From positions 2,322,001-2,386,000 of the forward strand of contig NZ_CP011008.1 of NCBI RefSeq assembly GCF_001578185.1: a stretch of 64,000 bases of DNA, in the 5' to 3' direction. The stretch is from Peribacillus simplex (GTDB lineage: Bacteria; Bacillota; Bacilli; Bacillales; DSM-1321). Positions 22,673 to 45,998 of this stretch are shown one piece after another (within the stretch, counting starts at the first letter, position 1; every line of letters begins with the position of its first letter). The notes under the pieces are model-generated. The model searched no databases, was not told the origin of the DNA, and saw only the letters and a program-made list of their open reading frames with translations. The position numbers and the translations under genes are program-made.

Positions 22673-22674
22673 CG

Positions 22675-28600: not shown

Positions 28601-29142
28601 CAAATTACATGGTTCCGGCACACTTTGTCGGATTGACAGCTTTCCCGCTCACCCCAAATGGGAAAATCGATCGGAAAGCCTTACCTGCGCCAGAGCGCAA
28701 GGGAGCAGAGGGTGGTTATGTTGCCCCTCGTACACCTACGGAAGTAGCAATTGTTTCGATATGGCATCAAGTTTTAGGCACGGAAAATATCGGGATTCAT
28801 GATTCCTTTTTTGAACTTGGTGGCCATTCATTACTCGCTACACAAGCTGTTACTAGCCTGAAAGAAGCCTTTGGGATTGAGTTACCACTGCATGATTTAT
28901 TTACGTATACTACGGTGCAGGAATTGGCAGAACGGGTTAATCAGCTGCAATGCAGTGGAAATGAACAAGCACAGAATGATAGTAAGGGGAATGTAAGTTT
29001 TCAAGACTATATTCAAAAAGAAACAGCAGTGAGTAATGATGAAGAGTTACTTGAACTTCTTAAGCAATTGGAAGAGTTATCAGAGGAAGAAGCGCAAGGT
29101 ATATTCGAGAGCAACTTGGTTAAGGAAGGGGTAAAAAAATGA
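22675..29142 (+). CDS. krsB: NRPS, modules 2-3 (C-A-T-C-A-T), KrsB-like
   Basis: 2155 residues. Domains: C of the D-C-L type (YGLSPLQKGILFHTL; HHILLDG at 144), A about 462-955, T with Ser1004, C of the L-C-L type about 1063-1490 (HHIISDG at 1196), A about 1522-2005, T with Ser2052, then a charged helical tail (about 2085-2155) likely to dock with the next synthetase. The first A code reads D-V-W-Q-F-G-F-I-Y-(K), which I cannot match confidently; position by position it is conservative with a Gly code (D-I-L-Q-L-G-L-I-W). The second reads D-L-F-N-N-A-L-T-Y-(K), a known Ala code. The D-C-L domain agrees with the E domain upstream. Its stop overlaps the next start as ATGA. Confidence 0.92.
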   Translation: MSDIIDIYGLSPLQKGILFHTLYDQDDDHSFSYIVQVDFILGGRLDVAAFEKAWEYIIHRHEILRSVFVWEEVEKPLQAVYQRLPFTIRREDWSALPCGEREKKLQQFLNADRRQGFSLDEAPLMRITAIKEAEEETRIIWTHHHILLDGWSVSLVFSEVMEVYFKMIKGEAFDLPKSLPYKKYIQWINKQDRSKAEKFWTEELKGFHAPTPLMMERNDQGQEKGYGESVYRLSEELTETLKEWVRNSQLTLNTLVQGAWAYLMSRYSGESDIVFGVTSSGRPAELVGAEKMVGLFINTLPTRIRVTDDHSLVDWLRKIQMKELERRQYEYNSLVDIQGWSEVPRGSDLFRTLYVFENYPIQGERKSDLSVLEVQSAEQTNYPLTLIAMPDKQLTLKLMYDRHHFDEETIQRIQGHLSQTLIQMTKSSDPKLSEITHLTMEERTQLLEKWNDTQVDYSCESMIHALFEQQVEKRPEAIAVMYENEQLTYKELNERANQLAHYLQKQGVGPESLVGVYMERSPEMMIGLLGILKSGGAYVPLDPTYPEKRLRYILEDARIEVLVTQERLEKIGISEQIEIICMDQDRIAIEQEEPTACTSSVTGKNLAYVMYTSGSTGKPKGVMIEHHSVINYLEWMQHQYPLSEKDVVLQKTPISFDVSVWELFWGISVGACVSFLPPGGEKDPSIIAEVIEKHRVTIVQFVPSMLSVFIDHFNQIELKRKCSSVRHVFSGGEELSPGLVRRFQQYWDESGQVKLTNFYGPTEATIYVNAYDCQSNKEFVSIGNPIQNIQLYVFDQNQRLQSVGIEGELYIGGAGLARGYLNRPDLTAERFVPHPFQLGERLYRTGDLVRYLTDGNLKFIGRMDHQVKVRGFRIELGEIEATLERHTSIKEAVVIVREDRPGDQRLVAYVISDGNIQKWREYLQNQLPNHMVPAHLVELDYFPLTPNGKIDRKALPEPEGQPMGAFNVLPRTPSEELIAAVWSQVLGIENIGSQDSFFERGGHSLLATQIVSRLQEAFQIKIPLRELFKYDTVEALAKRLDQLCKGDKKREIPPLIPMAREESIPLSYAQERLWFIDQLTPNSAMYNIHAACRLTGKWSLEALETGWNQLIERHESLRTVIQEREGQPIQQIQSHVFSPLPQMDLTILSLEDREREMKRFIQNEAEEPFHLGQGPLIRTRILKMDKEEWIFLCTMHHIISDGWSMGILLEEWMAFYEGALGKPVELKKLPVQYADFALWQKEWQKEEDLDEHLQYWKEELHGELPVLQLPMDRPRPSVQTHRGASQTLMLPYFLREKLKELSQQEGTTFFMTLMAAYQSFLARYTGQDDILVGSPIANRNVKEIEGLIGFFVNTLVYRADFSGNPTFQELLSQIRIKALKAYEYQDIPFERVVEAVKPERNTSHSPIFQTMFTLQNTKQGLPQLFERNMEMMESHTSIAKFDLSLFASETEEGLLLTFEYNTDLFNAATIERMAGHFEHWLSEIVSHPKDSLTKLNMLPKAEYKRLLEEWNDTDVVDLREETIHTLFEEQVEKTPEAIAVVCEDEELTYRELDERSNQLAHYLHKRGVGCESLVGISVTRSSEMIVGLLGIMKSGGAYVPIDPSYPESRLRYILADAHIEVLVTQEKLPQKMTLPESVDMICIDRDRAAIEQEVTTACTSGVTSDNLAYIIYTSGSTGNPKGVMIEHRSALTMIHWAHQTYSRQELAGVLASTSLSFDLSVFEVFVPLTMGGKVIVAESALHLDKLSTKDVTLVNTVPSAAKELVRANTIPSTVKVMNLAGEPLPQSLVEHLYESSPIEKVYNLYGPSEDTTYSTYMKLEKAVKYKVPPIGRPISNTEVYVLSANQQMVPIGVAGELYIGGSGLARGYLNRPDLTNERFIPHPFKEGERVYRTGDLVRYLPDGTLDYLGRIDHQVKIRGFRIELGEIEATLQSHSSVNEVVVMVREDHPGDQRLVAYVVGEENAHDWRDYLKTKLPNYMVPAHFVGLTAFPLTPNGKIDRKALPAPERKGAEGGYVAPRTPTEVAIVSIWHQVLGTENIGIHDSFFELGGHSLLATQAVTSLKEAFGIELPLHDLFTYTTVQELAERVNQLQCSGNEQAQNDSKGNVSFQDYIQKETAVSNDEELLELLKQLEELSEEEAQGIFESNLVKEGVKK
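25768..25920 (+). repeat. Recurring T-to-C junction, copy 1
   Basis: The stretch from the end of a carrier domain into the next condensation domain (protein TVEALAKRLDQL, then GDKKREIPPL, then IPLSYAQ) recurs with very similar DNA at 32322-32470 and 35451-35600. The linker is nearly identical in all three. Confidence 0.75.
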
Positions 29143-32100
29143 GAAGTGATTTACTTGCGAAGCTGGATTCGCTTTCTCCCGAGAAAAGGGAGTGGCTTCA
29201 GAAGCAGATGCAAAAAAAGGAGAAAGAAACGCTTCCGTTGTCCTATGCTCAACAACGATTATGGTTTATGGACCGATTTAACCCAAACAGTTCATTATAT
29301 AATATTCCGACAGTATGGCGTCTGAAAGGGCATTGGCTACCTGGAGCATTGGAAAAGGGATTAAATCGGCTCATTGAGCGTCATGATTCATTACGCACCG
29401 TTTTTAAGGAAGTAGGAGACCAACCGGTACAACATATTGTGGAATATCTTCCTGGAAAACTACCTGTAGAGGATTATTCTCACCTTCCTCTGGAAGTAAA
29501 GGAAAAAGAGATAGAGAGTTTGATTGCAAGAGAAGCGCAGGAGCCATTTGATTTAATGAATGGCCCTTTGATCCGCAATCAACTAGTTCAATTAGGGAAA
29601 GATGAATGGTTATTGCTATGTACCATGCACCATATTATTTCTGATGCGTGGTCCATCGGCATATTGATCAATGAATTGCTTGCCTTCTATGAGGAGGAAA
29701 CGAGTGGGAAGCCTGCTGGACTAAATTCGCTATCGATTCAATATGCAGACTTTGCGAAATGGCAAAAGCAGTGGTTGCAGGGTGAAGTGTTGGATCGACA
29801 ACTCACGTATTGGCAGGAAGAATTGTCCGGTGAGCTTCCTATATTACAACTGCCGTTGGATTGCCCTAGACCGGTTACGCAAACGTACGCTGGGGACACA
29901 TGTCGTGTGATTGTACCTCACACACTACTAAGTGCATTGAAGAATTTAAGTCAGCGAGAAGGATCCACCTTATTCATGACCTTAATGGCCGCGTATCAGA
30001 GCTTTCTTGCTCGCTATACGGGGCAAAATGATATTCTCGTCGGAAGTCCGATTGCGAATCGGAATCATAAAGGAGTAGAGGAATTAATCGGCTTCTTTGT
30101 TAATACGTTAGTCTATCGGGCGGACCTGAATGGGGCTCCTACGTTCCAGGAGATTTTGTCTCAGATAAAGAAAAAGGCGTTGAAGGCATATGAATATCAA
30201 GATATTCCGTTTGAAAAAGTGGTAGAAGCGGTACAACCTGAACGGAGCACTAGCCATTCGCCCATCTTCCAGACCATGTTTACGCTACAGAATATAAAAC
30301 AAGAACGATTAGAGCTGTCTGGGAGAAGTTTGGAAATGATAGAAAGTAATATCTCCATCGCGAAATTTGATTTGAGTCTAACCGCGTATGAGGTGGAGGA
30401 AGACCTACATGTCACTTTTGAGTACAATACAGATTTATTTGACAGTAGAACCATTGCACGTATGGCGGGGCATTTTGAAAACTGGTTGAACGAAATCGTT
30501 CATCATCCAGATGAATCATATACAAACCTGACGATGCTATCGGACACAGAGCAGAAGCAGCTCTTGGAAGAATGGAATGACACGGATGCAGTTTATGCAC
30601 ATGAGAGCATGATTCACGAACTGTTTGAACAGCAGGTTGCGCGTACACCTGAAGCGGTGGCGGTAGTATATGAAGGTGGACAGCTGACGTATCAAGAACT
30701 CAACGAGAAAGCGAACAAAATGGCCCATTATTTACAAAAACGGGATATAGGTCCTGAATCATTGGTCGGGATATGTTTCGAGCGTTCACCCGATATGATG
30801 ATTGGTCTCTTAGGAATTCTCAAAGCCGGCGGGGCTTATGTCCCGCTGGATCCGAGTTATCCCGAAAATCGCCTGAGATACATATTAAAGGACTCACAGA
30901 TCCAAGTGCTTTTAACGAAGGAAGCTCTACAAGGTTGGTTGCCCGAAGGGATCCAAGCGATTTGTTTGGATCGGGATCAAGCAGCGATTTCTAAAGAGAG
31001 TGGATTGGCGCCAGTGAGTGGAGTGACAGCAAAAAACTTGGCGTATATCATTTACACTTCGGGTTCGACAGGGAATCCGAAGGGAGTGATGATCGAACAC
31101 CACTCGGTTATCAACCGATTACAGTGGATGCAAAAAAACTATCCATTATCTGAACAGGATACGATTCTTCAAAAAACGCCGTTTTCGTTTGATGTCTCTG
31201 TCTGGGAATTATTTTGGTGGTCATTTGTAGGAGCGCGTGTTTGTTTACTTCCGCCGGGTGGAGAGAAGGATCCTGCAATGATTGAGGAGTGCATTGAGCG
31301 ATATCGTGTGACCACGATGCACTTTGTTCCGTCGATGTTATCTGCATTCTTGGATTATATGGAAAAATCCAAAGCGAAAAAGGACGTATCGTCTTTGTGT
31401 CAGGTTTTCACTAGTGGAGAAGCGTTAAATTCCGAACAGGTTCGCCGGTTTAAGGGTGTATTCTATGATTTTCAGCAAACGAAGTTAAGCAACTTGTATG
31501 GTCCTACCGAAGCGACTGTAGATGTTACTTACTATAATTGTGATTTAGAAAAAGAACTGATGCTCATTCCAATTGGTCGCCCGATTGATAATACCGATTT
31601 GTATGTATTGGATCAAAACCAACAGGTGGTACCTGTTGGTGTGGCTGGGGAACTTTACCTTGGTGGTGTTGGCTTGGCACGTGGTTACTTCAATCGTCCA
31701 GAGTTAACTGCTGAACGTTTTATTCCGCATCCATTTAAGGAAGGGGAACGACTCTATCGGACCGGGGACCTGGTGAGGTATCTGAATGACCGCAACTTGG
31801 AGTATATCGGCAGAGTAGATAATCAAGTGAAAATCAGAGGCTTCCGGATTGAGTTGGGAGAGGTTGAAGCGGTCCTACATGATCATCCATCTGTGAAAGA
31901 GGCTGTCGTGCTGGTAAGAGAAGATCATCCAGGAGACAAGCGGTTAGTAGCATATGTGGTGGGTGAAGGAAACACTGGAGAATGGCGCGAGCACTTAAAG
32001 GCGCAATTACCGAATTACATGGTCCCGGCATACTTTGTCGAAATGGAAGCGATGCCCCTCACTCCGAATAGCAAAATCGATCGCAAAGCCTTACTGGCAT

Positions 32101-35100
32101 TGGAAGGACAGTCCGTGAGTGCCGATATTGTCTTGCCGCGGACACCAGGGGAAGAGCTCATCGCGTCTGTATGGAGTCAGGTGTTAGGCATAGGAAATAT
32201 TGGTGTTCAGGCTTCCTTCTTCGAACTTGGTGGCCACTCGCTACTCGCTACCCAAGTTGTCTCACGTTTACAAGAAGTCTTCCAAATCGAACTACCGTTG
32301 CGTGAACTATTTGAGTATTCAACGGTGGAGGCACTGGCGAAGCGACTGGATCAGTTGCGTAAAGGAGACAAAAAACGGGAGATTCCACCGCTTATGCCGA
32401 TGGAACGGGGGGATGCCATTCCGCTCTCTTATGCCCAACAGCGCCTGTGGTTCATCGACCAATTCACGCCCAATAGTGCACTTTATAATATGCCGATGGT
32501 TTGCCGTCTTACAGGGAATTGGGTACCCGAAGCATTGGAGAAGGGATGGAATCAACTGATAGAACGTCATGAATCTTTACGGACAGTGTTCCATGAAGTG
32601 GATGGTCATCCTGTACAGCAGATTCAACCGCATGCTTTTCGGTCCCTTTCTCAAATGGATTTAACTATGCTTTCTCCGGAAGAGCGAGAATCGGAAGTTA
32701 AGCGTTTGTTGCAGCAAGAAACAGAAGTGCCATTTGACCTAGAAGAAGGCCCACTGATTCGGACGATCCTCTTGCGAGTGGGAGAAGAGGAATGGGTCCT
32801 CCTCTGCACCCTGCATCATATCGTTTCGGATGGATGGTCGATGGGAGTCCTCCTTGAAGAATGGATAGCTTTCTATAAGGAAGCAATGGGTGAGAAGGAA
32901 GCGGAACTTGAACCTTTACCGATCCAATATGCGGACTTTGCTCAGTGGCAAAAGGGATGGTTGAAGGAAGAAGTACTTGAACAGCAACTCCACTATTGGC
33001 AGGAAGAATTGTCTGGTGAGCTGCCCTTGCTACAACTGCCGATGGATCGCCCTCGTCCTGCGGTACAAACCCATCGCGGATCGACACACACTGTGTTGTT
33101 GTCACGTTCATTACGCGACAAACTGAACGAAATCAGTCGTCAAGAAGGATCGACTCTCTTCATGACCCTATTGGCTGCGTATCAAAGCTTCCTCTCCCGT
33201 TATACAGGACAAGAAGATATTCTCGTCGGAAGCCCAATTGCGAATCGTAATTACAGAGAGAGTGAAGGATTAATCGGCTTCTTCGTGAATACGCTGGTCT
33301 ATCGGGCTGACCTGAGTGGTACACCGACCTTCCAGGATATATTGTCTCGGGTGCGTCAAAAGGCACTGAATGCATACGAATATCAAGATATTCCATTTGA
33401 AAAAGTTGTGGAAGTTGTGCAGCCCGAGCGGAGTACAAGTCATTCTCCGATCTTCCAGACGATGTTCATCTTACAAAATATGAAACAAGAGCTTCCGGTG
33501 TTGGCTGATAGAAGGATCGAAATGATAGAAAGCCACAGTCCGATCGCGAAGTTTGATTTAAGTGTTATGGCAGCAGAGACGGAAGAAGGATTATTGTTCG
33601 CTTTTGAATACAATAAGGATTTATTTGATGTTACAACCATCGAACGAATGGCAGGACATTTTGAGACATGGCTAAATGAAGTTTCTCATCATCCACAAAA
33701 ACCGTTGAATAGTCTTGGTATGCTATCCGAATTTGAGCGTGATTTGTTAGTAGAGACATGGAATGACACCGCAATGGAAATGTCCCAAGTGGGTCTTATT
33801 TGCGACGGATTTGAGGACCAAGTAGCACGACGTCCCGGTGCGATAGCAGTGGTCGATCAAATGAGAGAGTGGACCTATGGTGAACTGGATGCGCGAGCAA
33901 ATCAGTTGGCACATGTTTTGCAGAGAAAAGGGGTTGTCCCTGAATCAGTTGTGGGCGTCTACCTCCCGAGATCGGCTGAGCTCATGGCAAGTTTACTTGG
34001 CATATTAAAAGCTGGCGGGGCCTATGTCGTCCTAGATCCGTTGTATCCGAAATCACGGTTACAATACATGATTGAAGATGCAGGGGTCCAAATCGTGGTG
34101 ACGACAGCAGCGCAAGAAAGCCTTTCCGAACAGGTCGAAACGGTGAGATTAGAAGAAATAACAGATGAAAGCGTGATCGCACCGAAGCGGCGGGTAAAAC
34201 CCGAGCATTTAGCTTATATCGTCTACACCTCTGGCTCCACAGGAAAGCCAAAGGGTGTCATGGTCGAATATCGGTCATTGATGAATATGGTTTCTTGGCA
34301 TCAAGCGGTATACCAAATTACAGCACAGGATCGTGCGACTCAGATTGCGGGGATTGCCTTTGACTCAGCTGTCCAGGAGATATGGCCTTATCTCACTGCA
34401 GGTGCAGCACTATACCTATCAACAGAAGAGTTGCGGATCAATCCAGAGGCTCTAAGAGATTGGCTCATTGATTCACGTATCACGGCTAGCTTTGCGCCTA
34501 CACCTATACTCGAAAGACTCTTGAAATTATCTTGGCCAGAGAAGACGGATCTCCGTTTTATCATTACGGGAGGGGATCAGTTAACACAGTATCCATCTGA
34601 ACAAATCCCTTTTGCGGTGATTAATCAGTATGGTCCATCGGAAAATACCGTCGTTGCCACTGATTGTTACGTGCCTGTAGGAATGTCAACAGGTACTCCG
34701 TCTATTGGTCGGCCGATTGCGAATACAGAAGTATACGTGTTAGATTCACACCTTCAGCCGGTGCCGGTGGGTGTGATTGGAGATCTCTATATCGGAGGAA
34801 AGAGCCTTGCTCGCGGCTATGCCAATCGTCCGGAACTCACAGAGGAAAAATTCATTCTGCATCCGTTCAAGTCAGGGGAACGTCTCTATTTCACCGGGGA
34901 CAAAGCAAGTTATCTTCCTGGCGGTGATCTCCAATTCCATGGTCGTATGGATGACCAAGTGAAAATTCGCGGTTTCCGGATTGAACTGGGAGAAGTTGAA
35001 GCAACGCTGCAGGCGCATTTGTCTGTGAAGGAAGCTGTTGTCCTGGTGAGAGAGGATCATCCAGGAGACAAGCGATTGGTAGCTTATGTAGCTGGTGAAG

Positions 35101-38100
35101 GAAGTGTTCATGAATGGCGGGAGCATCTGCAAACACATTTACCGAATTACATGGTTCCGGCACACTTTGTCGAGATGGCATTTTTACCACTCACACCAAA
35201 TGGAAAACTCGATTTGAAAGCATTACCTATGCCTGATGAACCATCTACTGAAAATACCGTATACCCAAGAACTCTGATGGAAGAGCTCATCGCTTCGGTA
35301 TGGAGTCAAGTACTGGAAATGGAAAATATTGGTGTGCAGGCTTCCTTCTTCGAACTTGGTGGCCACTCGCTACTTGCTACGCAAGTTGTCTCCCGGTTAA
35401 AAGAAGCATTACAAATCGAACTGCTAGTGCGTGAACTGTTTGAGCATTCAACGGTGGAGGCGTTGGCGAAGCGACTGGACCAATTGTGTAAAGGAGACAA
35501 AAAACGAGAGATTCCACCGCTTATACCGATGGAACGGGGAGAAGCCATTCCGCTCTCTTATGCCCAACAGCGCCTGTGGTTCATCGACCAATTTCAGCCC
35601 AATAGTGCACTATATAATATGCCGATGGTATGCCGTCTTACAGGGAATTGGGTACCCGAAGCATTGGAGACGGGATGGAATAGGCTGATAGAACGTCATG
35701 AATCTTTACGGACGGTATTCCATGAAGTGGATGGTCAACCTGTGCAGCAGATACAACCGTATGCTCTCCGGTCCCTTCCTAAAATGGATCTAACTACGCT
35801 TTCTCCGGAAGAGCGAGAAAGAGAAATGGAACAATGGATCAAAAACGAAGTCGAAGCACCATTTGACTTAGTGCAAGGTCCGTTGATTCGTGGGCAAATC
35901 GTGCAAATCGCTGAAGAAGAATGGATTCTTCTTTGTACGATGCATCATATTATCTCTGATGGCTGGTCGATGGAAATCTTGCTCCAAGAATGGATGGCAT
36001 TCTATGAAGATGCGGTTGGCGGCAAACCAGCAGAACTCGCACCATTACCGATTCAATATGCTGACTTTGCCCAATGGCAAAGGGAATGGTTAAAAGAAGA
36101 AGTACTTGATCGGCAGCTTGCATATTGGAAAGAAGAGCTGTCTGGCGAGTTACCAGTCTTAATGTTGCCGATTGATCGTCCTCGTCCTGCGGTGCAAACC
36201 CATAGCGGATCGACACACACTGTGTTGCTGTCACGCGCGTTACGCGACAAATTGAATGAGCTTAGTCGTCAAGAAGGATCGACGCTCTTCATGACCTTAC
36301 TTGCATCGTATCAAAGCTTTCTCTCTCGTTATACAGGACAATCAGATATTCTTGTCGGAAGCCCGATTGCAAATCGGAATTATCGCGAGATTGAAGGATT
36401 GATTGGTTTCTTCGTCAACACTTTGGTTTATCGGGCTGATCTGAGTGGCGCACCAACATTCCAAGAGTTGCTGTCTCAGGTACGGACAAAAGCATTGAAG
36501 GCGTATGAGTACCAAGATGTTCCGTTTGAAAAGATTGTAGAAGTCATACAATCCGAGCGAAGTATAAGTCATTCTCCAATCTTCCAAACCATGTTTACGT
36601 TGCAAAACACGAAACATGAGCTACCAGAGCTTCATGGAAGAAGTTTAGAAGCGATGGAAATTCAGGATTCGAACGCCAAGTTTGATTTGAGTTTAAGCGC
36701 CATAGAGAAGGAAGAGGGTTTGATCCTTTCTTTTGTCTTTAATACTGGCTTATTTGATGTTGTAACCATCAGACGTATGGCTGAGCATTTTGAAAAATGG
36801 TTGAATGAAATCGTGGAACATCCCGATAAATCACTGGCGAAGTTGACGTTGCTACCGGAGATGGAGAGGCAATTGCTGGAAGAGTGGAATGATAATGCTG
36901 AAACGTATCCACGTGAGAGTGTGATCCACAGACTTTTTGAAGATCAAGTGGATCTTACACCTGACACGGTGGCGGTAGTGGATGAAAATCAGCAGTTGAC
37001 GTATCGGGAGCTGAATGAAAAAGCAAACCAATTGGCCCATTATCTCCAAAAATGTGGGGTTGGGACCGAATCATTGGTAGGGCTTTGTTTCCAACGTTCA
37101 GTTGAGATGATTGTCGGTCTAATGGGAATCTGGAAAGCTGGGGCAGCCTATGTTCCGTTGGATCCATTGTACCCAGAAAGTCGCCTGCGATATATCCTGC
37201 AGGACACAGGGATTCAAGTATTGGTCACGAACGAAGCATTAAAAGAGTGGATACCCGAAGAAGTCGAAGCAGTTTGTTTGGATCGAGATCAAGCGATGAT
37301 CTCGCGAGAAAGTACCCTTTCACCAATATGTGAAGTGGCAGGAGAAAACTTGGCATATGTGATCTATACATCGGGTTCGACCGGGAATCCAAAGGGCGTT
37401 TTGGTGCAACATCATTCGGTACTAAATCTATCATATGGTCTACAGAAAGAGGTTTTTTCGCATGAGACACCTGTTAACATGCGTGTCGGTTTAAATGCTT
37501 CGATCGCCTTTGATGTATCCATTCAGCAATTACAAATGCTTTTGTATGGTTCAAGTTTGTATATTATTCCGGACGAAGTTCGCAGTGATCCCCAACAGTT
37601 TGTATCCTATATTCGGGAGAATAAGTTGGAAATGTTCGATATGACTCCTTCATTACTCCAATTACTCATAGATGGCGGGTTGTTAGAAACAAACGATGGT
37701 GTTCATGTTCCAAGCAAGGTACTGGTCGGTGGCGAAGCAATTGTACCGTCACTGTGGGAACAATTAGTTGAGGCTGACAAGATCCATTTTTATAACGTGT
37801 ATGGTCCTACGGAATGTACTGTCGATGCTACATGCTATCGTATCAAAAAAGATGGTAAGCGAGTAACCATTGGGCGTCCGTTGCCGAACGTTCAAGCCTA
37901 TGTATTGGATGGGAATTGGTTACCTGTTCCAGTTGGTGTAACGGGTGAACTTTATATCGGTGGAGCAGGTCTAGCGAGAGGATACTTGAATCGTCCAGAG
38001 TTAACGTCCGAACGTTTTATTCCCCATCCTTTCAAAGAAGGAGAGAGGCTATATCGAACAGGAGATCTCGTGAGGCACCTTCCTGATGGTAACTTGGATT

Positions 38101-41100
38101 ATCTAGGAAGATTGGATAACCAAGTGAAAATTAGAGGATTTCGGATTGAGCTTGGGGAAATTGAGGCAACCTTACAGGAGCATCTCTCGGTAAAAGAGGC
38201 CGTTGTGATGGTGAGAGAAGATCAGCCAGGAGATAAGAGATTGGTAGCCTATGTAGTGGGTGAAGGGCGTAAAGAAGAATGGCGCGAGTATCTCAAAGCA
38301 CAACTGCCAAGCCATATGGTTCCCGCCTACTTTGTCGGGATGGAAGAGTTACCATTGACCTTAAATGGAAAGATTGATCGGAAAACTTTGCCTGTGCCAG
38401 ATCATCAAGGGACAAAAGGAGGCTACGTGGCTCCAAGAAATGAGAGTGAACAAATACTTACCATGATATGGGAACGTGTGTTAGGCACAAAACCGATTGG
38501 CATTCATGAAAACTTTTTTGAAATCGGTGGAGACTCGATTCTCAGCATTCAGATTGTCTCTCGCGCAAGGCAAGCAGGTTTGCAATTGACACCAAAGCAA
38601 ATGTTTGAACACCAAACGATTTCCGAGTTGGCGCAAGTAGTCAAAGAAGAGCAGGGTGTACAAGCGGAACAAGGAGTCGTAACTGGAGAACTGATCCTTA
38701 CACCAATCCAGCAATGGTTTTTTGCACAAGATCATCCTAACCCACATCATTGGAATCAATCCATGTTTTTTAGAACAAAAGAGCGTCTGGATATAGTATT
38801 ACTGGAGAAAGCTGTCCGTACCCTTCTAATCCATCACGATGCCTTGCGTTTAAGATATGAACGTTTTCCGGATGGAGCTTGGAAACAGCGGAACGAAGGG
38901 ATTGAAGAACACTCGACTCTGACCGTGATTTCATTAGAAGAAGTGCCACAAGCAGAATGGCATCAAGTAATTCAAGCAGAGATTGACACTGCACAAGCAA
39001 GCTTGCACTTACACGCAGGACCGCTAATGAGAATGGTGTATTTTGATGAAGGCGAGAAGAGAGCCGGCCGATTATTCTGGGTGATTCATCACTTAGCAGT
39101 GGATGGTGTTTCTTGGCGGATTTTACTGGAGGATCTGCAAACGGCGTATAATCAAGCGAGCCATGCTCAAATGATCCAATTACCTACAAAAAGTACATCC
39201 TTTAAAGCGTGGTCGGAGAAATTGCATCATTACGCTGAAGCTGGGATTGTGCAAGGAGTGCGTGATTACTGGGAGCAGCAATCCGAACAAGAGGTGGCTA
39301 TGCTACCAGTGGATACCACCCTCGAAGTTCCAGCAAACACAGGAACCGAGGAGATTACCGTGGTGCTGGATGAGAAAGAGACCCGTGCGTTATTGCAAGA
39401 GATTTCAAGCACTCATCGTGTCCAAATCAATGAAGTGCTATTGACAGCATTGGTACAGGCTACGGCAGCATGGACAGGTCATACGACGCTGACCGTGGAT
39501 TTGGAGGGTCATGGCCGGGAAGAGATCATCGAAGACGTTGACCTATCGAGAACCGTGGGATGGTTTACAAGTATCTATCCTGTTCACTTGAATATTACAG
39601 GTGCTAACACGCCCACCGCAGCATTAAAAGCAGTCAAAGAACAAGTGCGCCAAATTCCTAATAAGGGCGTTGACTATGGGATTTTGCGGTACTTGAATCC
39701 AGCGATGCGTGAGCGATTCCAGTCTCAAATCACTCCGTCCATTAGTTTTAACTATCTTGGACAATTTGACCAAATGTTCTCTGACGATGCAATGTTTGCT
39801 CCGGAGACCGGGTTTACGCGCTTAGATCATGCTCCTGGTTCCAAGCGATCACATTTGATCGATGTAATCGGGATTGTAACCGATGGAAAACTTCATTTCA
39901 CTTGGGTGTACAATGTTGGACAGTTTGCGGAGTCGACCATTCAAAGTGTTGCCGAGAATATGCTCCATCAACTGAGTGGATTGATTCATTCTTCGGGTGG
40001 AGAATCTACGCTGACCGTTTCGGATTTTGCGATTGCAAATCTCATCCCAGCAGATTTGAACAAAGTACTATGTAAGATGAATCGTGGAAAGAATTATCCG
40101 ATTATCGACCTGTATCCGCTATCACCTTTGCAGGAAGGCATGATCTTTCATACGCTGCATGATCAAGGGGATGAACATTCCGTGCCGTATATGGTGCAAT
40201 TAAGTTTCCTGTTTAAAGGGAAATTGGATATTCTTACTTTCGAGCAGGCGTGGAAATCGACGATCCAGCGGCATGAGATCTTTCGTTCGGCATTTGTGTG
40301 GGATGAGATTGAAAATCCTTTACAAGTGGTGTATGCACATATCCCATTTAAGCTGAATGAAGTGGATTGGAGTGCGCTGTCTGCTGAAGAAAAAGAGGAG
40401 AAACGAAAAGCCTTTTTGGCGACGGATCGAAAACAGGCCTTTCTTTTTGATGAAGCGCCATTGATGCGGGTGACTGTCATTCAAGAAGCGGAGGATGAAT
40501 ATCGGGTTGTTTGGACGCATCACCATATTTTGTTGGATGGATGGAGCTTGCCACTGGTCTTTAACGAATTGCTTACAGTGTATCAGAAGAGGATAAAAGG
40601 AGAGGCTGTGGATTTACCCAAGTCACCGCTATACAAGAAATATATTCAATGGCTGAAAGTGCAGGATCTGGAACAAGCGGAACAATTCTGGAGAGAGAAA
40701 CTCAAAGGCTTTACAGCGCCAACCCTGCTTGGCTTAGAAAGTAAGGAGCAAGAAAAAGGTTACACGGAGAAGGTAACTTATTTATCAGAAGAGCAAACCC
40801 AAGCGCTACAAAACTGGGCGAAGCGAAAGAGGCTCACTTTGAACACGGTAATTCAAGGTGCGTGGGCGTATCTCATGAGCCGGTATAGTGGAGAAGATGA
40901 CATTGTCTATGGTGTAACTAGCTCGGGACGCCCTACGGAGATTATTGATGTTGAAAACATTGTAGGTCCCTTTATTACCACATCACCGACGCGAATTAAG
41001 TTGCTAGATGATATAAAAGTAATGGATTGGTTGCAGAAGATACAAGAGGAAGAGATAGAAAGAAGACAATATGAATATGCTTCATTGACAGATATTCAAG

Positions 41101-44009
41101 GATGGAGTGAAGTTCCTAGAGGAACCCCGCTGTTCCATAGCTTGTATGTGTTTGAAAACTACCCAGTGAAAGAGGAGTCTTCAGGAAATCTAGAAATTGG
41201 TGAGTTGGAAGGAGTAGAGCAAACTCATTATCCATTGGGATTGACGGTTGTTCCAGAAAGCCAGTTGTTGTTAAAGTTGAAGTATGATCGCAGCAAGTTT
41301 AATGGCCTAACCATTGAACGGATGCTGGGTCATTTAAGCCAGGTGTTAAAGCAAATGATCGAGAACGTTGATCAAACTCTGTCGGAGCTGGTGTATGTTA
41401 CGGAAATAGAAAAGAAACAACTACTGGAAGAATGGAATGATAATGCCGCAGCATATCCACGTGAGAGTGTGATCCACAAACTGTTTGAAGATCAAGTGGA
41501 TCGTACACCTGACACGGTGGCTGTAGTGGATGAAAATCAGCAGTTGACGTATCGGGAGCTGAATGAAAAAGCAAACCAATTGGCCCATTATCTCCATAAA
41601 TGTGGGGTTGGGACCGAATCATTGGTCGGGCTTTGTTTCCAACGTTCAGTTGAGATGATTGTCGGTCTCATGGGAATCTGGAAAGCCGGGGCAGCTTATG
41701 TTCCATTGGATCCAGCGTATCCAGAAAGTCACCTGCGATATATTCTGGAGGACACAGGGATTCAAATATTGGTTACGAATGAAGTATCACAAGGTTGGAT
41801 ACCTGAAGAAGTTGAAACAGTTTATTTGGACCGGGATCAAGCAATGATTTCGCAAGAAAACACCCTTTCACCAATATGTAAAGTGACAGGAGAAAACTTG
41901 GCGTATGTGATCTACACTTCAGGTTCGACCGGGAATCCAAAAGGGGTTTTGGTGCAGCATCATTCGGTATTAAATCTATCCTATGGTTTACAGAAAGAGG
42001 TTTTTTCGCATGAGACACCTGTTAACATGCGCGTTGGTCTGAATGCCTCAATCGCCTTTGATTCATCCGTTAAACAATTACAAATGCTTTTGTATGGTTC
42101 TAGTTTGTATATTATTCCGAACGAAGTTCGCAGTGATCCTCAACAGTTTGTATCTTATATTCGGGAGAATAAGTTGGAAATGTTCGATATAACTCCTTCA
42201 CTACTCCAATTAATCATAGATGAGGGGGCGTTAGAAACAAACGATGGTGTTCATGTTCCAAGCAAGGTACTGGTTGGTGGAGAAGCGATTATGCCATCAC
42301 TGTGGGAACAATTAGTAGAGGCTGACAAGGTCCATTTTTATAACGTGTATGGTCCTACGGAATGTACTGTCGATGCGACATGCTATCGTATCAAAAAAGA
42401 TAGTAAGCGGGTTACCATTGGGCGTCCGTTGCCGAACGTTCAAGCCTATGTATTGGATGGGAATTGGTTACCTGTTCCAGTTGGTGTAACGGGTGAACTT
42501 TATATCGGTGGAGCAGGCCTGGCGAGAGGATACTTGAATCGTCCAGAGTTAACGTCCGAACGTTTTATTCCTCATCCATTTAATGATGGGGAACGGTTAT
42601 ACCGGACGGGAGATCTAGTCCGCTATTTAGCTGATGGCCATTTGGATTATCTGGGAAGAATCGATAATCAAGTGAAAATTCGAGGATTCCGGATTGAGCT
42701 TGGAGAGATTGAAGCGAATTTAGAATGTCATCCATCGGTGAAAGAGGCAGTAGTCTTGATAAGAGAGGACCAACCAGGAGATCAGAGATTGGTTGCCTAT
42801 GTGGTGGGTGAAGGAAATATGCATGAATGGCGTGAGCATCTCAAGAGACAAGTACCGAATTATATGGTTCCTGCACACTTTATTGAGGTAGACGCGGTTC
42901 CGCTTACAACAAATGGGAAGGTTGATCGAAAGGCACTGAACAGCTTAACGATTCAAAGAGAAAGTACCTTTTCTACACCAATCATCCCACGGGATGAAAT
43001 CGAGTATCAGCTGATTACGATCTGGCAGGATTTGCTACAGATAGAAGATGTCCATGTAAACGATGATTTCTTCGATTTAGGGGGTCACTCTCTCCTTGTA
43101 ATCAAATTGATTTCAAAGGTCAGAGAGAAATTTGGAAAAGAGATTAAGGTGTCCGCACTGATTAAGAACCCGACAGTGGAAGGGATCGCTTATCTCATCC
43201 GTGAGAATCATGGTATGGCAAAATCGTTATCGGTTCTGGTTCCACTACAAGAATCAGAGAAAAGACCTTTCTTCTGTGTTCATCCGTTTATGGGTAATGT
43301 ATTCTGTTACATTCAGCTAGCAAGGTTACTCAAGGATCACTGCTCATTTTATGGTCTACAGAATCCTCTCGTAGAGAAAGAAGGAATGAATGGGTTGACT
43401 TTATCGGAAGTAGTTCAACTCTACATCGAGGAAATGAAGCGCGCTCAGCCAGTGGGGCCGTATCGTCTGGGAGGATGGTCTCTGGGCGGTGCCATCGCCT
43501 ATGAAATCGCAACTATGCTACGGAACCAGGGAGAAGAAGTTGAGGTGTTGGTACTCATGGATACCAAGGTGCCTTCAGAACAGGATTACAAGGCAGAGGA
43601 TGAAATGCTATCTTATATATTGGAGCATTTCAGCCATTTAGAGCTAGTGGAGCAGGAAGAAGAGCTCGTCCATCAACAGGGCATGCTTGTTGATCAGTTG
43701 ATCGCGGAAGGAGTGCTCCGGCCCGATGCGGATCTTACGAGTCTAAAGCAGATTACCGATGCTCACAGGAAGTGTCTAAATTTAATGGCAGAACATATTT
43801 TAACGCCATATTTTGGGGAGGTCATCTACTTCAGTGCTGAAGAAGGCAGAGAGTTGTTCACGGATTGGAAGCCGTTATTACAGGGGAAAGTGAATAAACA
43901 TTCGGTTCCAGGGCCGCACGAGGAGATCGTCTTCTCCCCAGCAGTGGAAAAGATAGCCAAAAGTCTCGTAAATGAGTTTGAAGGGAGCGTAACTCAGATT
44001 TCCAGGTGA
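29139..44009 (+). CDS. krsC: NRPS, modules 4-7 with terminal thioesterase, KrsC-like
   Basis: 4956 residues: C-A-T, C-A-T, C-A-T-E, C-A-T-TE. Carrier serines are 1034, 2077, 3133 (GGDS, before E) and 4651. Adenylation codes read D-V-W-H-F-S-L-V-D (Ser), D-S-Q-F-I-G-Q-V-V (unassigned), D-V-Q-D-L-G-V-V-D (Gln-type) and D-S-K-D-L-G-V-V-D (Glu-type). The E domain (about 3186-3630, His3317) makes D-Gln, and the following C (YPLSPLQEGMIFHTL) is of the D-C-L type as expected. The thioesterase has GWSLGG with Ser4781 and should release, probably by cyclisation. Oddities: the first C domain has H164-H165-x3-D169-A170 where Gly is usual; A10 motifs are NSKIDR in module 4 and NGKLDL in module 5. The gene starts inside the previous stop (ATGA). 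Confidence 0.92.
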   Translation: MRSDLLAKLDSLSPEKREWLQKQMQKKEKETLPLSYAQQRLWFMDRFNPNSSLYNIPTVWRLKGHWLPGALEKGLNRLIERHDSLRTVFKEVGDQPVQHIVEYLPGKLPVEDYSHLPLEVKEKEIESLIAREAQEPFDLMNGPLIRNQLVQLGKDEWLLLCTMHHIISDAWSIGILINELLAFYEEETSGKPAGLNSLSIQYADFAKWQKQWLQGEVLDRQLTYWQEELSGELPILQLPLDCPRPVTQTYAGDTCRVIVPHTLLSALKNLSQREGSTLFMTLMAAYQSFLARYTGQNDILVGSPIANRNHKGVEELIGFFVNTLVYRADLNGAPTFQEILSQIKKKALKAYEYQDIPFEKVVEAVQPERSTSHSPIFQTMFTLQNIKQERLELSGRSLEMIESNISIAKFDLSLTAYEVEEDLHVTFEYNTDLFDSRTIARMAGHFENWLNEIVHHPDESYTNLTMLSDTEQKQLLEEWNDTDAVYAHESMIHELFEQQVARTPEAVAVVYEGGQLTYQELNEKANKMAHYLQKRDIGPESLVGICFERSPDMMIGLLGILKAGGAYVPLDPSYPENRLRYILKDSQIQVLLTKEALQGWLPEGIQAICLDRDQAAISKESGLAPVSGVTAKNLAYIIYTSGSTGNPKGVMIEHHSVINRLQWMQKNYPLSEQDTILQKTPFSFDVSVWELFWWSFVGARVCLLPPGGEKDPAMIEECIERYRVTTMHFVPSMLSAFLDYMEKSKAKKDVSSLCQVFTSGEALNSEQVRRFKGVFYDFQQTKLSNLYGPTEATVDVTYYNCDLEKELMLIPIGRPIDNTDLYVLDQNQQVVPVGVAGELYLGGVGLARGYFNRPELTAERFIPHPFKEGERLYRTGDLVRYLNDRNLEYIGRVDNQVKIRGFRIELGEVEAVLHDHPSVKEAVVLVREDHPGDKRLVAYVVGEGNTGEWREHLKAQLPNYMVPAYFVEMEAMPLTPNSKIDRKALLALEGQSVSADIVLPRTPGEELIASVWSQVLGIGNIGVQASFFELGGHSLLATQVVSRLQEVFQIELPLRELFEYSTVEALAKRLDQLRKGDKKREIPPLMPMERGDAIPLSYAQQRLWFIDQFTPNSALYNMPMVCRLTGNWVPEALEKGWNQLIERHESLRTVFHEVDGHPVQQIQPHAFRSLSQMDLTMLSPEERESEVKRLLQQETEVPFDLEEGPLIRTILLRVGEEEWVLLCTLHHIVSDGWSMGVLLEEWIAFYKEAMGEKEAELEPLPIQYADFAQWQKGWLKEEVLEQQLHYWQEELSGELPLLQLPMDRPRPAVQTHRGSTHTVLLSRSLRDKLNEISRQEGSTLFMTLLAAYQSFLSRYTGQEDILVGSPIANRNYRESEGLIGFFVNTLVYRADLSGTPTFQDILSRVRQKALNAYEYQDIPFEKVVEVVQPERSTSHSPIFQTMFILQNMKQELPVLADRRIEMIESHSPIAKFDLSVMAAETEEGLLFAFEYNKDLFDVTTIERMAGHFETWLNEVSHHPQKPLNSLGMLSEFERDLLVETWNDTAMEMSQVGLICDGFEDQVARRPGAIAVVDQMREWTYGELDARANQLAHVLQRKGVVPESVVGVYLPRSAELMASLLGILKAGGAYVVLDPLYPKSRLQYMIEDAGVQIVVTTAAQESLSEQVETVRLEEITDESVIAPKRRVKPEHLAYIVYTSGSTGKPKGVMVEYRSLMNMVSWHQAVYQITAQDRATQIAGIAFDSAVQEIWPYLTAGAALYLSTEELRINPEALRDWLIDSRITASFAPTPILERLLKLSWPEKTDLRFIITGGDQLTQYPSEQIPFAVINQYGPSENTVVATDCYVPVGMSTGTPSIGRPIANTEVYVLDSHLQPVPVGVIGDLYIGGKSLARGYANRPELTEEKFILHPFKSGERLYFTGDKASYLPGGDLQFHGRMDDQVKIRGFRIELGEVEATLQAHLSVKEAVVLVREDHPGDKRLVAYVAGEGSVHEWREHLQTHLPNYMVPAHFVEMAFLPLTPNGKLDLKALPMPDEPSTENTVYPRTLMEELIASVWSQVLEMENIGVQASFFELGGHSLLATQVVSRLKEALQIELLVRELFEHSTVEALAKRLDQLCKGDKKREIPPLIPMERGEAIPLSYAQQRLWFIDQFQPNSALYNMPMVCRLTGNWVPEALETGWNRLIERHESLRTVFHEVDGQPVQQIQPYALRSLPKMDLTTLSPEEREREMEQWIKNEVEAPFDLVQGPLIRGQIVQIAEEEWILLCTMHHIISDGWSMEILLQEWMAFYEDAVGGKPAELAPLPIQYADFAQWQREWLKEEVLDRQLAYWKEELSGELPVLMLPIDRPRPAVQTHSGSTHTVLLSRALRDKLNELSRQEGSTLFMTLLASYQSFLSRYTGQSDILVGSPIANRNYREIEGLIGFFVNTLVYRADLSGAPTFQELLSQVRTKALKAYEYQDVPFEKIVEVIQSERSISHSPIFQTMFTLQNTKHELPELHGRSLEAMEIQDSNAKFDLSLSAIEKEEGLILSFVFNTGLFDVVTIRRMAEHFEKWLNEIVEHPDKSLAKLTLLPEMERQLLEEWNDNAETYPRESVIHRLFEDQVDLTPDTVAVVDENQQLTYRELNEKANQLAHYLQKCGVGTESLVGLCFQRSVEMIVGLMGIWKAGAAYVPLDPLYPESRLRYILQDTGIQVLVTNEALKEWIPEEVEAVCLDRDQAMISRESTLSPICEVAGENLAYVIYTSGSTGNPKGVLVQHHSVLNLSYGLQKEVFSHETPVNMRVGLNASIAFDVSIQQLQMLLYGSSLYIIPDEVRSDPQQFVSYIRENKLEMFDMTPSLLQLLIDGGLLETNDGVHVPSKVLVGGEAIVPSLWEQLVEADKIHFYNVYGPTECTVDATCYRIKKDGKRVTIGRPLPNVQAYVLDGNWLPVPVGVTGELYIGGAGLARGYLNRPELTSERFIPHPFKEGERLYRTGDLVRHLPDGNLDYLGRLDNQVKIRGFRIELGEIEATLQEHLSVKEAVVMVREDQPGDKRLVAYVVGEGRKEEWREYLKAQLPSHMVPAYFVGMEELPLTLNGKIDRKTLPVPDHQGTKGGYVAPRNESEQILTMIWERVLGTKPIGIHENFFEIGGDSILSIQIVSRARQAGLQLTPKQMFEHQTISELAQVVKEEQGVQAEQGVVTGELILTPIQQWFFAQDHPNPHHWNQSMFFRTKERLDIVLLEKAVRTLLIHHDALRLRYERFPDGAWKQRNEGIEEHSTLTVISLEEVPQAEWHQVIQAEIDTAQASLHLHAGPLMRMVYFDEGEKRAGRLFWVIHHLAVDGVSWRILLEDLQTAYNQASHAQMIQLPTKSTSFKAWSEKLHHYAEAGIVQGVRDYWEQQSEQEVAMLPVDTTLEVPANTGTEEITVVLDEKETRALLQEISSTHRVQINEVLLTALVQATAAWTGHTTLTVDLEGHGREEIIEDVDLSRTVGWFTSIYPVHLNITGANTPTAALKAVKEQVRQIPNKGVDYGILRYLNPAMRERFQSQITPSISFNYLGQFDQMFSDDAMFAPETGFTRLDHAPGSKRSHLIDVIGIVTDGKLHFTWVYNVGQFAESTIQSVAENMLHQLSGLIHSSGGESTLTVSDFAIANLIPADLNKVLCKMNRGKNYPIIDLYPLSPLQEGMIFHTLHDQGDEHSVPYMVQLSFLFKGKLDILTFEQAWKSTIQRHEIFRSAFVWDEIENPLQVVYAHIPFKLNEVDWSALSAEEKEEKRKAFLATDRKQAFLFDEAPLMRVTVIQEAEDEYRVVWTHHHILLDGWSLPLVFNELLTVYQKRIKGEAVDLPKSPLYKKYIQWLKVQDLEQAEQFWREKLKGFTAPTLLGLESKEQEKGYTEKVTYLSEEQTQALQNWAKRKRLTLNTVIQGAWAYLMSRYSGEDDIVYGVTSSGRPTEIIDVENIVGPFITTSPTRIKLLDDIKVMDWLQKIQEEEIERRQYEYASLTDIQGWSEVPRGTPLFHSLYVFENYPVKEESSGNLEIGELEGVEQTHYPLGLTVVPESQLLLKLKYDRSKFNGLTIERMLGHLSQVLKQMIENVDQTLSELVYVTEIEKKQLLEEWNDNAAAYPRESVIHKLFEDQVDRTPDTVAVVDENQQLTYRELNEKANQLAHYLHKCGVGTESLVGLCFQRSVEMIVGLMGIWKAGAAYVPLDPAYPESHLRYILEDTGIQILVTNEVSQGWIPEEVETVYLDRDQAMISQENTLSPICKVTGENLAYVIYTSGSTGNPKGVLVQHHSVLNLSYGLQKEVFSHETPVNMRVGLNASIAFDSSVKQLQMLLYGSSLYIIPNEVRSDPQQFVSYIRENKLEMFDITPSLLQLIIDEGALETNDGVHVPSKVLVGGEAIMPSLWEQLVEADKVHFYNVYGPTECTVDATCYRIKKDSKRVTIGRPLPNVQAYVLDGNWLPVPVGVTGELYIGGAGLARGYLNRPELTSERFIPHPFNDGERLYRTGDLVRYLADGHLDYLGRIDNQVKIRGFRIELGEIEANLECHPSVKEAVVLIREDQPGDQRLVAYVVGEGNMHEWREHLKRQVPNYMVPAHFIEVDAVPLTTNGKVDRKALNSLTIQRESTFSTPIIPRDEIEYQLITIWQDLLQIEDVHVNDDFFDLGGHSLLVIKLISKVREKFGKEIKVSALIKNPTVEGIAYLIRENHGMAKSLSVLVPLQESEKRPFFCVHPFMGNVFCYIQLARLLKDHCSFYGLQNPLVEKEGMNGLTLSEVVQLYIEEMKRAQPVGPYRLGGWSLGGAIAYEIATMLRNQGEEVEVLVLMDTKVPSEQDYKAEDEMLSYILEHFSHLELVEQEEELVHQQGMLVDQLIAEGVLRPDADLTSLKQITDAHRKCLNLMAEHILTPYFGEVIYFSAEEGRELFTDWKPLLQGKVNKHSVPGPHEEIVFSPAVEKIAKSLVNEFEGSVTQISR
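32322..32470 (+). repeat. Recurring T-to-C junction, copy 2
   Basis: See 25768-25920. This copy and the one at 35451 are almost identical at DNA level and continue into closely similar C domains, showing that modules 5 and 6 share recent ancestry or gene conversion. Confidence 0.75.
35451..35600 (+). repeat. Recurring T-to-C junction, copy 3
   Basis: Third copy of the GDKKREIPPL linker DNA with flanking T and C segments, as described for 25768 and 32322. Confidence 0.75.
36890..38180 (+). repeat. Duplicated adenylation-domain DNA, copy in module 6
   Basis: The A domain of module 6 is nearly identical in DNA to 41430-42720 (module 7) over most of its length, including silent positions. The main protein differences fall at specificity positions (FDVSIQQLQ here, FDSSVKQLQ in module 7). 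Confidence 0.85.
41430..42720 (+). repeat. Duplicated adenylation-domain DNA, copy in module 7
   Basis: Partner of 36890-38180. The similarity covers the A-domain core through the RTGDLV region and fades towards the carrier domain. Confidence 0.85.
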
Positions 44010-44183
44010 AAGAAAATATTTTTGGAAAAGAAATTTTCTTGAAAAAATTCAATCTGCCAAAGATATTTTAGAGAAACACTCATTCTGAAAGAATTGTAGT
44101 TCAAGGTGGAGGTTGCAGCGTTGACTTAGTTTCATTTTCTTATTTGGAATCAAAAATATGATGATGTTACCATAATCTAGGCG

Positions 44184-44219
44184 GATTTGGAAACCACCAT
44201 GTCCATGTGGTTTCCAATC
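44184..44219. repeat. Hairpin without T-run downstream of the NRPS operon
   Basis: TTGGAAACCAC and GTGGTTTCCAA pair across a 9-nt spacer. No T-run follows, so it is not a standard terminator; it could protect the 3' end of the transcript. Confidence 0.45.
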
Positions 44220-44303
44220 TAATGGTGCCAGTTTTCTTAAGAAGCCAAAAATGTTGATTTATCTACGATGTGTAAAATCATGCATAATCGATAAAAAACA
44301 GAC

Positions 44304-44343
44304 AAGAGCCAAACCTTTAAATACATAAGGATTTGGCTCTTTG
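44304..44343 (+). terminator. Likely terminator of the NRPS operon
   Basis: AAGAGCCAAACCTT pairs with AAGG-A-TTTGGCTCTTT around an AT loop and ends in a short T-run. It is the best terminator candidate after the synthetase stop, about 295 bases downstream. Confidence 0.6.
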
Positions 44344-44440
44344 GCGTACTTCTGATAGTTGATTTTATGTAAACAGAGTTTATATAAAGAAATAGGTTCT
44401 TTTCGTAAAGATTGTTGTTTTTAAAACGAAACTATTTAAG

Positions 44441-44538
44441 GTTGATTGGAGCGGAAGTGCGAGACCCCACAGGCGTTTACGCCGAGGAGGCTCACCGCCC
44501 GCCCCGCGGAAAGCGAGCATCTGGAGGGGAAATCAACC
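44441..44538 (+). repeat. GC-rich dispersed repeat, copy 2
   Basis: Begins GTTGATTGGAGCGGAAG and ends GGAAATCAACC, with GAGACCCC, GAGGAGGCTC, CCGCCCGC and GCGGAAAGCGAG blocks in the same order as the reverse complement of 11999-12123. It is about 25 bp shorter in the middle. Copy 1 lies inside an IS1182 element; this one shows no transposase nearby. Confidence 0.7.
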
Positions 44539-44592
44539 ACAACTCACTACCTGGTAAATAGCAACAAAGTATGTGAAAACAGCCAAGAAATA

Positions 44593-44637
44593 AAAGAACT
44601 CGTTAAGAAGGAATTCTTCCAACGGGTTCTTTGTTTG
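44593..44637 (+). terminator. Terminator-like hairpin
   Basis: AAAGAACTCGTT pairs with AACGGGTTCTTT (one G-T pair) around a purine-rich loop, followed by a T-rich stretch. No intact gene lies just upstream, so it may be left from a lost gene. Confidence 0.5.
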
Positions 44638-44845
44638 TGTATTTCCTTGAATTTATTAATGATGCGTAAAAAAATCTCAAAACCCTTCTCATCCAATAAA
44701 TATTATAATCTAATTGATTAAGAGCAGGCTTACTAATTAAATAGAAAGCTTCTTTAATTTTCATCCTCTTTTTACATGCTTACCTTTTATTCAAAATTCT
44801 TTATTCCTCAATTTAAAAAGTATATTTCAACCTCTTAGCGAGAAA

Positions 44846-45037
44846 TTGGGGTGTAAAACATATCCATATGTAACCACTTTACAATTGGTTTCGGTGCATT
44901 ACTTTATGGTTTCAGCAATGCCGGAAGTCTTGGATAGGTCAGGTATAAAGGTACTAAGTACGTTTGCTGTAGGCATCTTAGCTCTTGCACTCTTTTCATG
45001 GAAGTATAAAAAGCTTAGATCCATAAAAAGAGATTGA
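44846..45037 (+). other. Doubtful 63-aa membrane peptide frame
   Basis: An open frame from TTG with no good ribosome site, encoding one hydrophobic segment (VLSTFAVGILALALFSW) and a basic end (KYKKLRSIKRD). The ending looks like a membrane-protein C-terminus, so it may be a remnant of a transporter gene. I recognise no family. Confidence 0.2.
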
Positions 45038-45407
45038 ACAATCTGATAAACTTTATTTAAATGAGTGGGAGAAATTATTCTACAAAAACTTTTCAACTAA
45101 CGGATGCATTAGTTGCATAAGATATGAGTTATCCAAAGATCTTATGCTTAGAAACTACGGAGTTTTATTTTCCAAAAATGAATCTTCGTGCGATATTTCC
45201 GTTTTTTCGTCTAGACCACGATTAGTGCTGTTCAAACTAGCCATCAATCACCGGTTCGCAAAAGTACACATTTGCGAACGGTTTTTAAGAAGGTATGAAT
45301 AGAAAAAGGGTTTAGAATTAAACATTATTAAGCCATTAATTCTCGGTTATTTACATAGAGGATGTTTTTTAAATTTACTACGGGAGTTTTTTTACAATTC
45401 TTTTTAA
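45038..45407. other. Gap before doxX
   Basis: AT-rich region of about 370 bases with no gene seen. It contains the strong terminator hairpin at 45250-45287 and leads into the Fur-type site at 45412. Confidence 0.5.
45250..45287 (+). terminator. Strong rho-independent terminator
   Basis: CCGGTTCGCAAA pairs with TTTGCGAACGG around an 8-nt loop and is followed by TTTTT. Its gene is not obvious; it insulates doxX from upstream transcription. Confidence 0.65.
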
Positions 45408-45411
45408 AAGT

Positions 45412-45430
45412 GATAATGATATTCGTTTTC
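45412..45430. promoter_or_regulatory. Fur-box-like site upstream of doxX
   Basis: GATAATGATATTCGTTTTC matches the 19-bp Fur consensus GATAATGATAATCATTATC at 16 of 19 positions. It overlaps the expected -35 region of a promoter whose TATAAT is at 45442-45447, so iron-bound Fur would block transcription. Confidence 0.6.
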
Positions 45431-45488
45431 AATTGTGTTATTATAATTTTGGAAATTATATTTTTTATTACTTATTGGAGGAAACAAC

Positions 45489-45998
45489 ATGTTTATTGAT
45501 GTTTTAAGACAAAACCAGAAAGTCTCAATACTTTTGGCAGTGTTACGTGTATATCTTGGATATACATGGTTAATGGCTGGATGGGAGAAAATAGCAGGCG
45601 GACAGTTTGATGCTTCCGGTTTCTTGAATGGAGCATTAGCACAAGCAACTGGAGAGCATCCGGCGGTCCAGGGATGGTGGGTTGTCTTTCTAGAAAACCT
45701 AGCCATTCCTCATGTAGAACTATTTAACACATTTGTACCTTGGGGAGAATTACTAGTCGGAATAGGTTTATTGATAGGTTGCTTTACTAAAACAGCCGTA
45801 TTCTTTGGCCTTGTTATGAATTTTTCTTATTTGTTTAGTGGTTCGACAAGTACCAACACACAACTAATTTTATTATCTATGTTCATTCTTGTTTCTGCTT
45901 TAAATGCAGGAAGATTTGGAGTGGATGGTCTGTTGATGGCATCTCTTAAAGACAAACTATTTGCTAACAAAACGAAAGTGCTGAAAGATGCAGTTTAG
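45489..45998 (+). CDS. DoxX-family membrane protein
   Basis: 169 residues with four predicted membrane helices and DoxX-like features: LRVYLGYTWLMAGWEKI near the N-terminus, the VELFNTFVPWGELLVGIGLLIG second half, and a late ALNAGRFGVDGLL. Bacterial DoxX proteins are small membrane proteins linked to redox and respiratory functions; biochemical roles remain varied. The ATG has TTGGAGGAA upstream. A Fur-like box over its promoter suggests expression in iron limitation, in line with the iron permease downstream, which has its own similar box. Confidence 0.85.
   Translation: MFIDVLRQNQKVSILLAVLRVYLGYTWLMAGWEKIAGGQFDASGFLNGALAQATGEHPAVQGWWVVFLENLAIPHVELFNTFVPWGELLVGIGLLIGCFTKTAVFFGLVMNFSYLFSGSTSTNTQLILLSMFILVSALNAGRFGVDGLLMASLKDKLFANKTKVLKDAV

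Follow-up and report, generated by a model that had tools for sequence, protein, structure and literature searches.

The krs-type gene cluster and its parts

The window, which is the whole stretch of 64,000 nucleotides that was analysed (positions 2322001-2386000 of the 5.52 Mb genome of Peribacillus simplex), carries a kurstakin-type cluster (krsABC) of three collinear NRPS genes that together encode seven modules. The cluster and the parts of it that matter here are the following:

16848-18077, + strand: MFS efflux protein at the krsE position upstream of krsA (TIGR00900 match below the curated cut-off; krsE position according to PMC10672896)
18056-22672, + strand: KrsA-like NRPS, module 1: starter C - A (Thr code DFWNIGMVH) - T - E
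22675-29142, + strand: KrsB-like NRPS, modules 2 (DVWQFGFIY) and 3 (DLFDKALTY, Ala-like)
29139-44009, + strand: KrsC-like NRPS, modules 4 (Ser), 5 (DSQFIGQVV), 6 (Gln-type, with E) and 7 (Glu-type), thioesterase
36876-38015 (approximate), + strand: A-core block of module 6, homogenised with module 7 (quartet sites, trees, AU tests)
37515-37526, + strand: codons 236-239 of module 6, GTA TCC ATT CAG (V S I Q)
38676-39998 (limits approximate), + strand: epimerisation domain of module 6 (sequence; five condensation-type domains; same place as the E domain in module 6 of the kurstakin synthetase, PMC12751101)
41424-42563 (approximate), + strand: A-core block of module 7, homogenised with module 6 (quartet sites, trees, AU tests)
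42063-42074, + strand: codons 236-239 of module 7, TCA TCC GTT AAA (S S V K)
43266-43934, + strand: thioesterase domain (Pfam PF00975)

The reading of the KrsA-like protein starts at an ATG near 18110 (MSNEECYP), and the KrsC-like open reading frame encodes 4956 amino acids in four modules, the first of which (module 4) has the Ser code DVWHFSLVD; a domain search found five condensation-type domains in this protein. The cluster resembles krsABC of the B. cereus group (PMC12751101, PMC10672896) in many respects: The three genes encode one, two and four modules and end in a C-terminal thioesterase, E domains belong to modules 1 and 6 (by domain order in the sequence, an E-type domain ends KrsA), Thr, Ala and Ser codes stand at modules 1, 3 and 4, and an efflux gene lies upstream. 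The E domain of module 6 predicts a D-configured residue 6. In the B. cereus group, krsE is located upstream of krsA (PMC10672896), and sfp and krsD downstream of krsC; in the window, the region 44009-45489 has no open reading frame of at least 150 amino acids and hence no sfp adjoining krsC. Kurstakin itself is Thr-Gly-Ala-Ser-His-D-Gln-Gln (PMC12751101, PMC10672896), acylated and closed to a lactone at Ser4, and compared with this peptide the codes of the window are Thr, Ala-like, Ser and Gln-type at positions 1, 3, 4 and 6, and Glu-type at position 7. For module 6 of the B. cereus group, software gives no prediction (PMC12206863), whereas module 6 of the window is Gln-type. The codes of modules 2 (24073-25137) and 5 (33810-34820) are almost invariant among krs clusters and match no standard table; they would mean Gly and His if the krs products are kurstakins.

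The cluster is rare: A search of 150 related genomes (E<=1e-100) gave matches only in the genome of the window and in a congener, Peribacillus frigoritolerans RU293. An IS1182-type transposase and an rve integrase (12431-13564 and 15260-16126) lie directly upstream, and with this rarity they make it likely that the krs cluster was acquired by transfer. Further upstream, an open reading frame of 222 amino acids (8591-9259) had no Pfam match at E 1e-5, and a scan of viral contigs gave no match.

Probable concerted evolution of two adenylation cores

The A-domains of modules 6 (residues ~2590-3010 of KrsC) and 7 (residues ~4106-4525) are 92% identical, while all other pairs of A-domains in the cluster share 46-65%. 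The sequence-only reading had described almost the same A-domain DNA in both modules, and this is true of the A-cores; the twin block consists of the A-core alone, and identity drops sharply beyond it, where the upstream C domain (dS of about 1.4 between the modules) and the downstream A-sub/T region are ordinary divergent paralogues. Alignment gave the code residues D-V-Q-D-L-G-V-V-D for module 6 and D-S-K-D-L-G-V-V-D for module 7, with codon 236 being GTA (37515-37517) or TCA (42063-42065) and codon 239 being CAG (37524-37526) or AAA (42072-42074), respectively. The same mapping returned the textbook codes for known modules, i.e. Thr (module 1), Ser (module 4), SrfAA module 1 and an iturin-type Gln module. 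The two reference modules, which were picked in Bacillus genomes by gene size and neighbouring codes, differ in just the expected way, with the Glu domain of SrfAA module 1 reading DAKDLGVVD (FDASVKQ, K239) and the iturin-type Gln domain reading DAQDLGVVD (FDASVQQ, Q239). Thus, the assignment of a Gln-type code to module 6 and of a Glu-type code to module 7 was confirmed.

Within the window, the two A-cores differ at 30 of 380 residues and at 88 of 1140 nucleotides, and only two of these 30 residues belong to the code. The ratio of dN (0.040) to dS (0.238), a check which the sequence-only reading had put forward, is 0.17 and gives no sign of positive selection across the A-domain. Moreover, the enrichment of amino acid differences in the pocket is weak if the window is taken by itself (p=0.06), so that the case rests on the comparison between species. 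That the pair goes beyond chance is indicated both by the much lower identity of all other A-domain pairs and by the presence of the same two codes in two more species.

The comparison set consisted of the window, P. frigoritolerans RU293 (G028, PFR) and Priestia endophytica DSM 13796 (G336, PEN). For each pair of genomes, quartet sites were counted as module-type (M6+M6, M7+M7) or as genome-type (M6+M7 of one genome). Between the window and P. endophytica, the core has 68 genome-type and 11 module-type sites, and the flanks have 10 and 273, respectively (p=2e-50). The trees agree with these counts: Those of the C flank and of the A-sub/T region separate module 6 from module 7 with full support, whereas in the A-core tree module 6 of P. 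endophytica joins module 7 of the same species (support 1.0). Similarly, when the pocket was left out of the core, the AU test rejected the module tree (p=5e-63), and for each of the two flanks it rejected the genome trees instead (p<1e-3). Synonymous divergence between the A-cores of modules 6 and 7 is 0.24 within the window and 0.28 within P. endophytica, and it amounts to 0.46-0.66 between the orthologues of the two species; therefore, homogenisation has taken place in both lineages after their split. In the alignment, an N-terminal patch of module 7 of P. frigoritolerans looks converted to the module 6 type, unlike the window. In sum, a bounded tract in which the paralogues of one genome are closer than the orthologues is enclosed by orthologous flanks. 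The gene conversion that the sequence-only reading had suspected is thus supported and was most likely recurrent, with the A-cores of modules 6 and 7 as the homogenised blocks; it is the DNA around the code, not the code difference, that is recent.

The specificity codons 236 and 239

V236/Q239 in module 6 and S236/K239 in module 7 are also found in P. frigoritolerans and P. endophytica. Since the A-cores of the two Peribacillus species and P. endophytica have diverged to a dS of ~0.46-0.66, the code difference predates their split, and the idea that a focused change of Q to K at GrsA position 239 had been caught early has to be given up. In the three genomes, 11 core residues are diagnostic of the genome and just three of the module: V/S at 236, Q/K at 239 and, at some distance upstream of these, an R/H difference. 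In this comparison, two of the three module-diagnostic residues are specificity residues, so that the proposed concentration of the differences at such residues, which fails for the window, holds across species. Module-specific sites cluster at the specificity codons: Between the window and P. endophytica, 5 of the 11 module-type core sites fall into a pocket island of 12 codons (permutation p=0.0006), and codons 236 and 239 contain three informative sites, every one of them module-type (p=0.0019). In addition, two synonymous differences beside the pocket (GCT/GCC and TTA/CTN) follow the module across species, and a tree of 18 pocket codons groups the three module 7 sequences (0.973). For the island of 12 codons alone, the AU test puts the genome tree just at the limit of rejection (p=0.05), and the clustering is weaker for the pair of P. 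frigoritolerans and P. endophytica by itself (p=0.06). One synonymous site in codon 237, between the two code codons, is genome-type, and re-mutation after conversion may therefore explain the difference at 236 and 239. The intact clusters with the twin pair number three and come from two genera.

More distant relatives bear on the direction of the change. A krs cluster is present in a thermoactinomycete-like, class-level relative (G785:C14:19000-52000), the genus of which is likely Croceifilum (after PMC12751101), and the module 7 orthologue of this outgroup has Q239. So has a related domain at G777:C36:1-4466, where the start of a krsC-like gene encodes a first module with the Gln-type code DAQDLGLVD that is 71% identical to module 7 of the window; the contig ends there. 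K239 in module 7 of Peribacillus and Priestia is thus probably derived, in keeping with the proposed direction from Q to K.

The outgroup also draws attention to module 6. Its KrsC is mostly 60-90% identical to that of the window; only the A-core of module 6 falls to 30-34%, and this A-domain is 96% identical to that of its own module 1, including the Thr code. On its left side, the module-1-like stretch begins abruptly at the C-A linker. A [D-Thr6] kurstakin variant is the predicted product of this cluster, and a Thr6 variant has been predicted for B. mycoides as well (PMC12206863). With the module 6 A-core of the outgroup being a copy of that of module 1, this position seems to act as an exchange slot that is overwritten by cores of the same line, the source being module 1 in the outgroup and the type being that of module 7 in Peribacillus and Priestia.

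A decayed copy in Priestia megaterium KF18 may show what can become of the pair. Plasmid NZ_CP085447.1 of this strain (19924-26566) carries an unannotated, 5'-truncated krsC remnant with modules 6 and 7, fused to plasmid sequence and with conjugation genes alongside, and no other krs modules were found in the genome. Both A-domains of the remnant read DVQDLGVVD (Gln-type), and their common part has a dS of 0.03. The identical pockets fit the idea that a decayed gene no longer has its pocket protected, as a single case; the conversion may also be older than the truncation, or the identity of the twins may reflect an assembly collapse.

Predicted product, rival explanations and meaning

According to a review, a change of residue 239 in module 1 of surfactin shifted the preference from Glu to Gln (PMC11355689, PMC7960918). 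As this residue is reported to govern the choice between the two amino acids, modules 6 and 7 probably accept Gln and Glu, respectively. Module 7 agrees with the code of SrfAA module 1, D-A-K-D-L-G-V-V-D, at eight of nine positions, position 236 being Ser instead of Ala. We infer both the substrates and the action of selection, and the following explanation seems to us quite probable: The A-cores of modules 6 and 7 of KrsC would be an old intragenic pair in concerted evolution, with an exchanged unit that would begin at the C-A linker, end near motif A7/A8 and leave the C domain and A-sub/T untouched. In intact genes, codons 236 (Val versus Ser) and 239 (Gln versus Lys) would stay module-specific through the conversions, and tracts running over them would most likely be removed by selection. 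Gln would be loaded by module 6, whose E domain would turn it into D-Gln6, and Glu by module 7. The product would then be a lipoheptapeptide Thr-x-Ala-Ser-x-D-Gln-Glu, and for the window cluster we predict a [Glu7]kurstakin. The wider claim that selection guards the switch at 236 and 239 in a conversion-homogenised core, that module 6 is an exchange slot and that the lineage makes a so far undescribed [Glu7]kurstakin appears to us evenly balanced between right and wrong.

Of the other explanations, the one to be taken most seriously, even though we consider it unlikely, accepts the conversion and holds that the pocket difference barely matters: module 7 with K239 would load Gln, the product would be ordinary kurstakin with Gln6 and Gln7, and 236 and 239 would be chance remnants between tracts. 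Indeed, Gln7 was established for the kurstakin of B. cereus by MS/MS and NMR (PMC10672896, PMC12751101), although prediction software assigns Glu to module 7 in B. cereus-group clusters (PMC12206863), and code-based calls of the two amino acids overlap, DAQDLGVVDK being listed for Glu as well as for Gln (PMC12283262). The Glu-type code of the window differs from the Gln7 of the known product; this comparison is by product, as a search with module 7 in 397 genomes of the order did not find a B. cereus-group krsC (the PapR marker was found in none of the 397, and its controls were equally silent). The loading of Gln is opposed by the reported role of residue 239 in surfactin module 1 and by the surfactin- and iturin-type modules, which split by K239 and Q239. 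The few other module-type sites that likewise survive in the A-core leave room for chance remnants, but of the three residues that keep to their module throughout the three species, two are code positions.

Much less probable are independent recent duplications of the A-core in the different lineages, with the same two amino acid changes arising anew after each of them. Such parallel duplications would leave the same similarity of the cores within a genome, and the changes from GTA to TCA and from CAA to AAA take only three base changes; they are contradicted by the module-bound synonymous differences beside the pocket, by the scattered module-type sites in the core and by converted patches that differ between the species. 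Hardly any weight is left for the original version of the sequence-only reading, according to which the organism of the window, after a duplication, has very recently made a focused switch from Gln to Glu. It had in its favour the 92% identity and the change at 239, whereas the same code pair is fixed in P. frigoritolerans and P. endophytica, and a dS of 0.24 with 30 amino acid differences does not describe a fresh duplication.

Our preferred explanation, conversion of the core around two lasting code codons, can be compared with processes already described. Exchange of A-cores with such boundaries is already known (PMC8097286, PMC9205934): there as here, the A-core is the exchanged unit, with the native C-A linker and A-sub/T interface; in the described cases, however, the pocket moves and the substrate changes, whereas in krsC the core is homogenised while two codons of the pocket keep their difference. 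A conversion with an effect on specificity has likewise been described, in the microcystin gene mcyA2 (PMC3640908), where gene conversion and point mutation acted on one A-domain and altered the product; in mcyA2 conversion carries the pocket, while in intact krsC it stops short of it. The contrast of Glu and Gln in otherwise similar domains recalls module 1 of surfactin (Glu) and lichenysin (Gln), and module 7 shares with the former K239 along with D278-L299-G301-V322-V330-D331. Those modules, however, are orthologues in different species and have Ala at position 236, whereas KrsC holds both types in one protein, with Val in module 6 and Ser in module 7. A literature search found no report of recurrent conversion that leaves specificity codons apart, which does not prove that none exists; looking for the code strings in papers gave a single hit.

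Whether two residues alone can set the specificity of an A-domain is an engineering question of long standing. Modules 6 and 7 come close to a controlled experiment, as only three core residues, including 236 and 239, consistently separate the two domains. If the A-domain of module 6 takes Gln and that of module 7 takes Glu, very few positions would suffice for specificity, and this reading predicts an acidic kurstakin variant with a mass shift of +0.984 Da. Intragenic conversion would also be able both to maintain and to erase the diversity of substrates.
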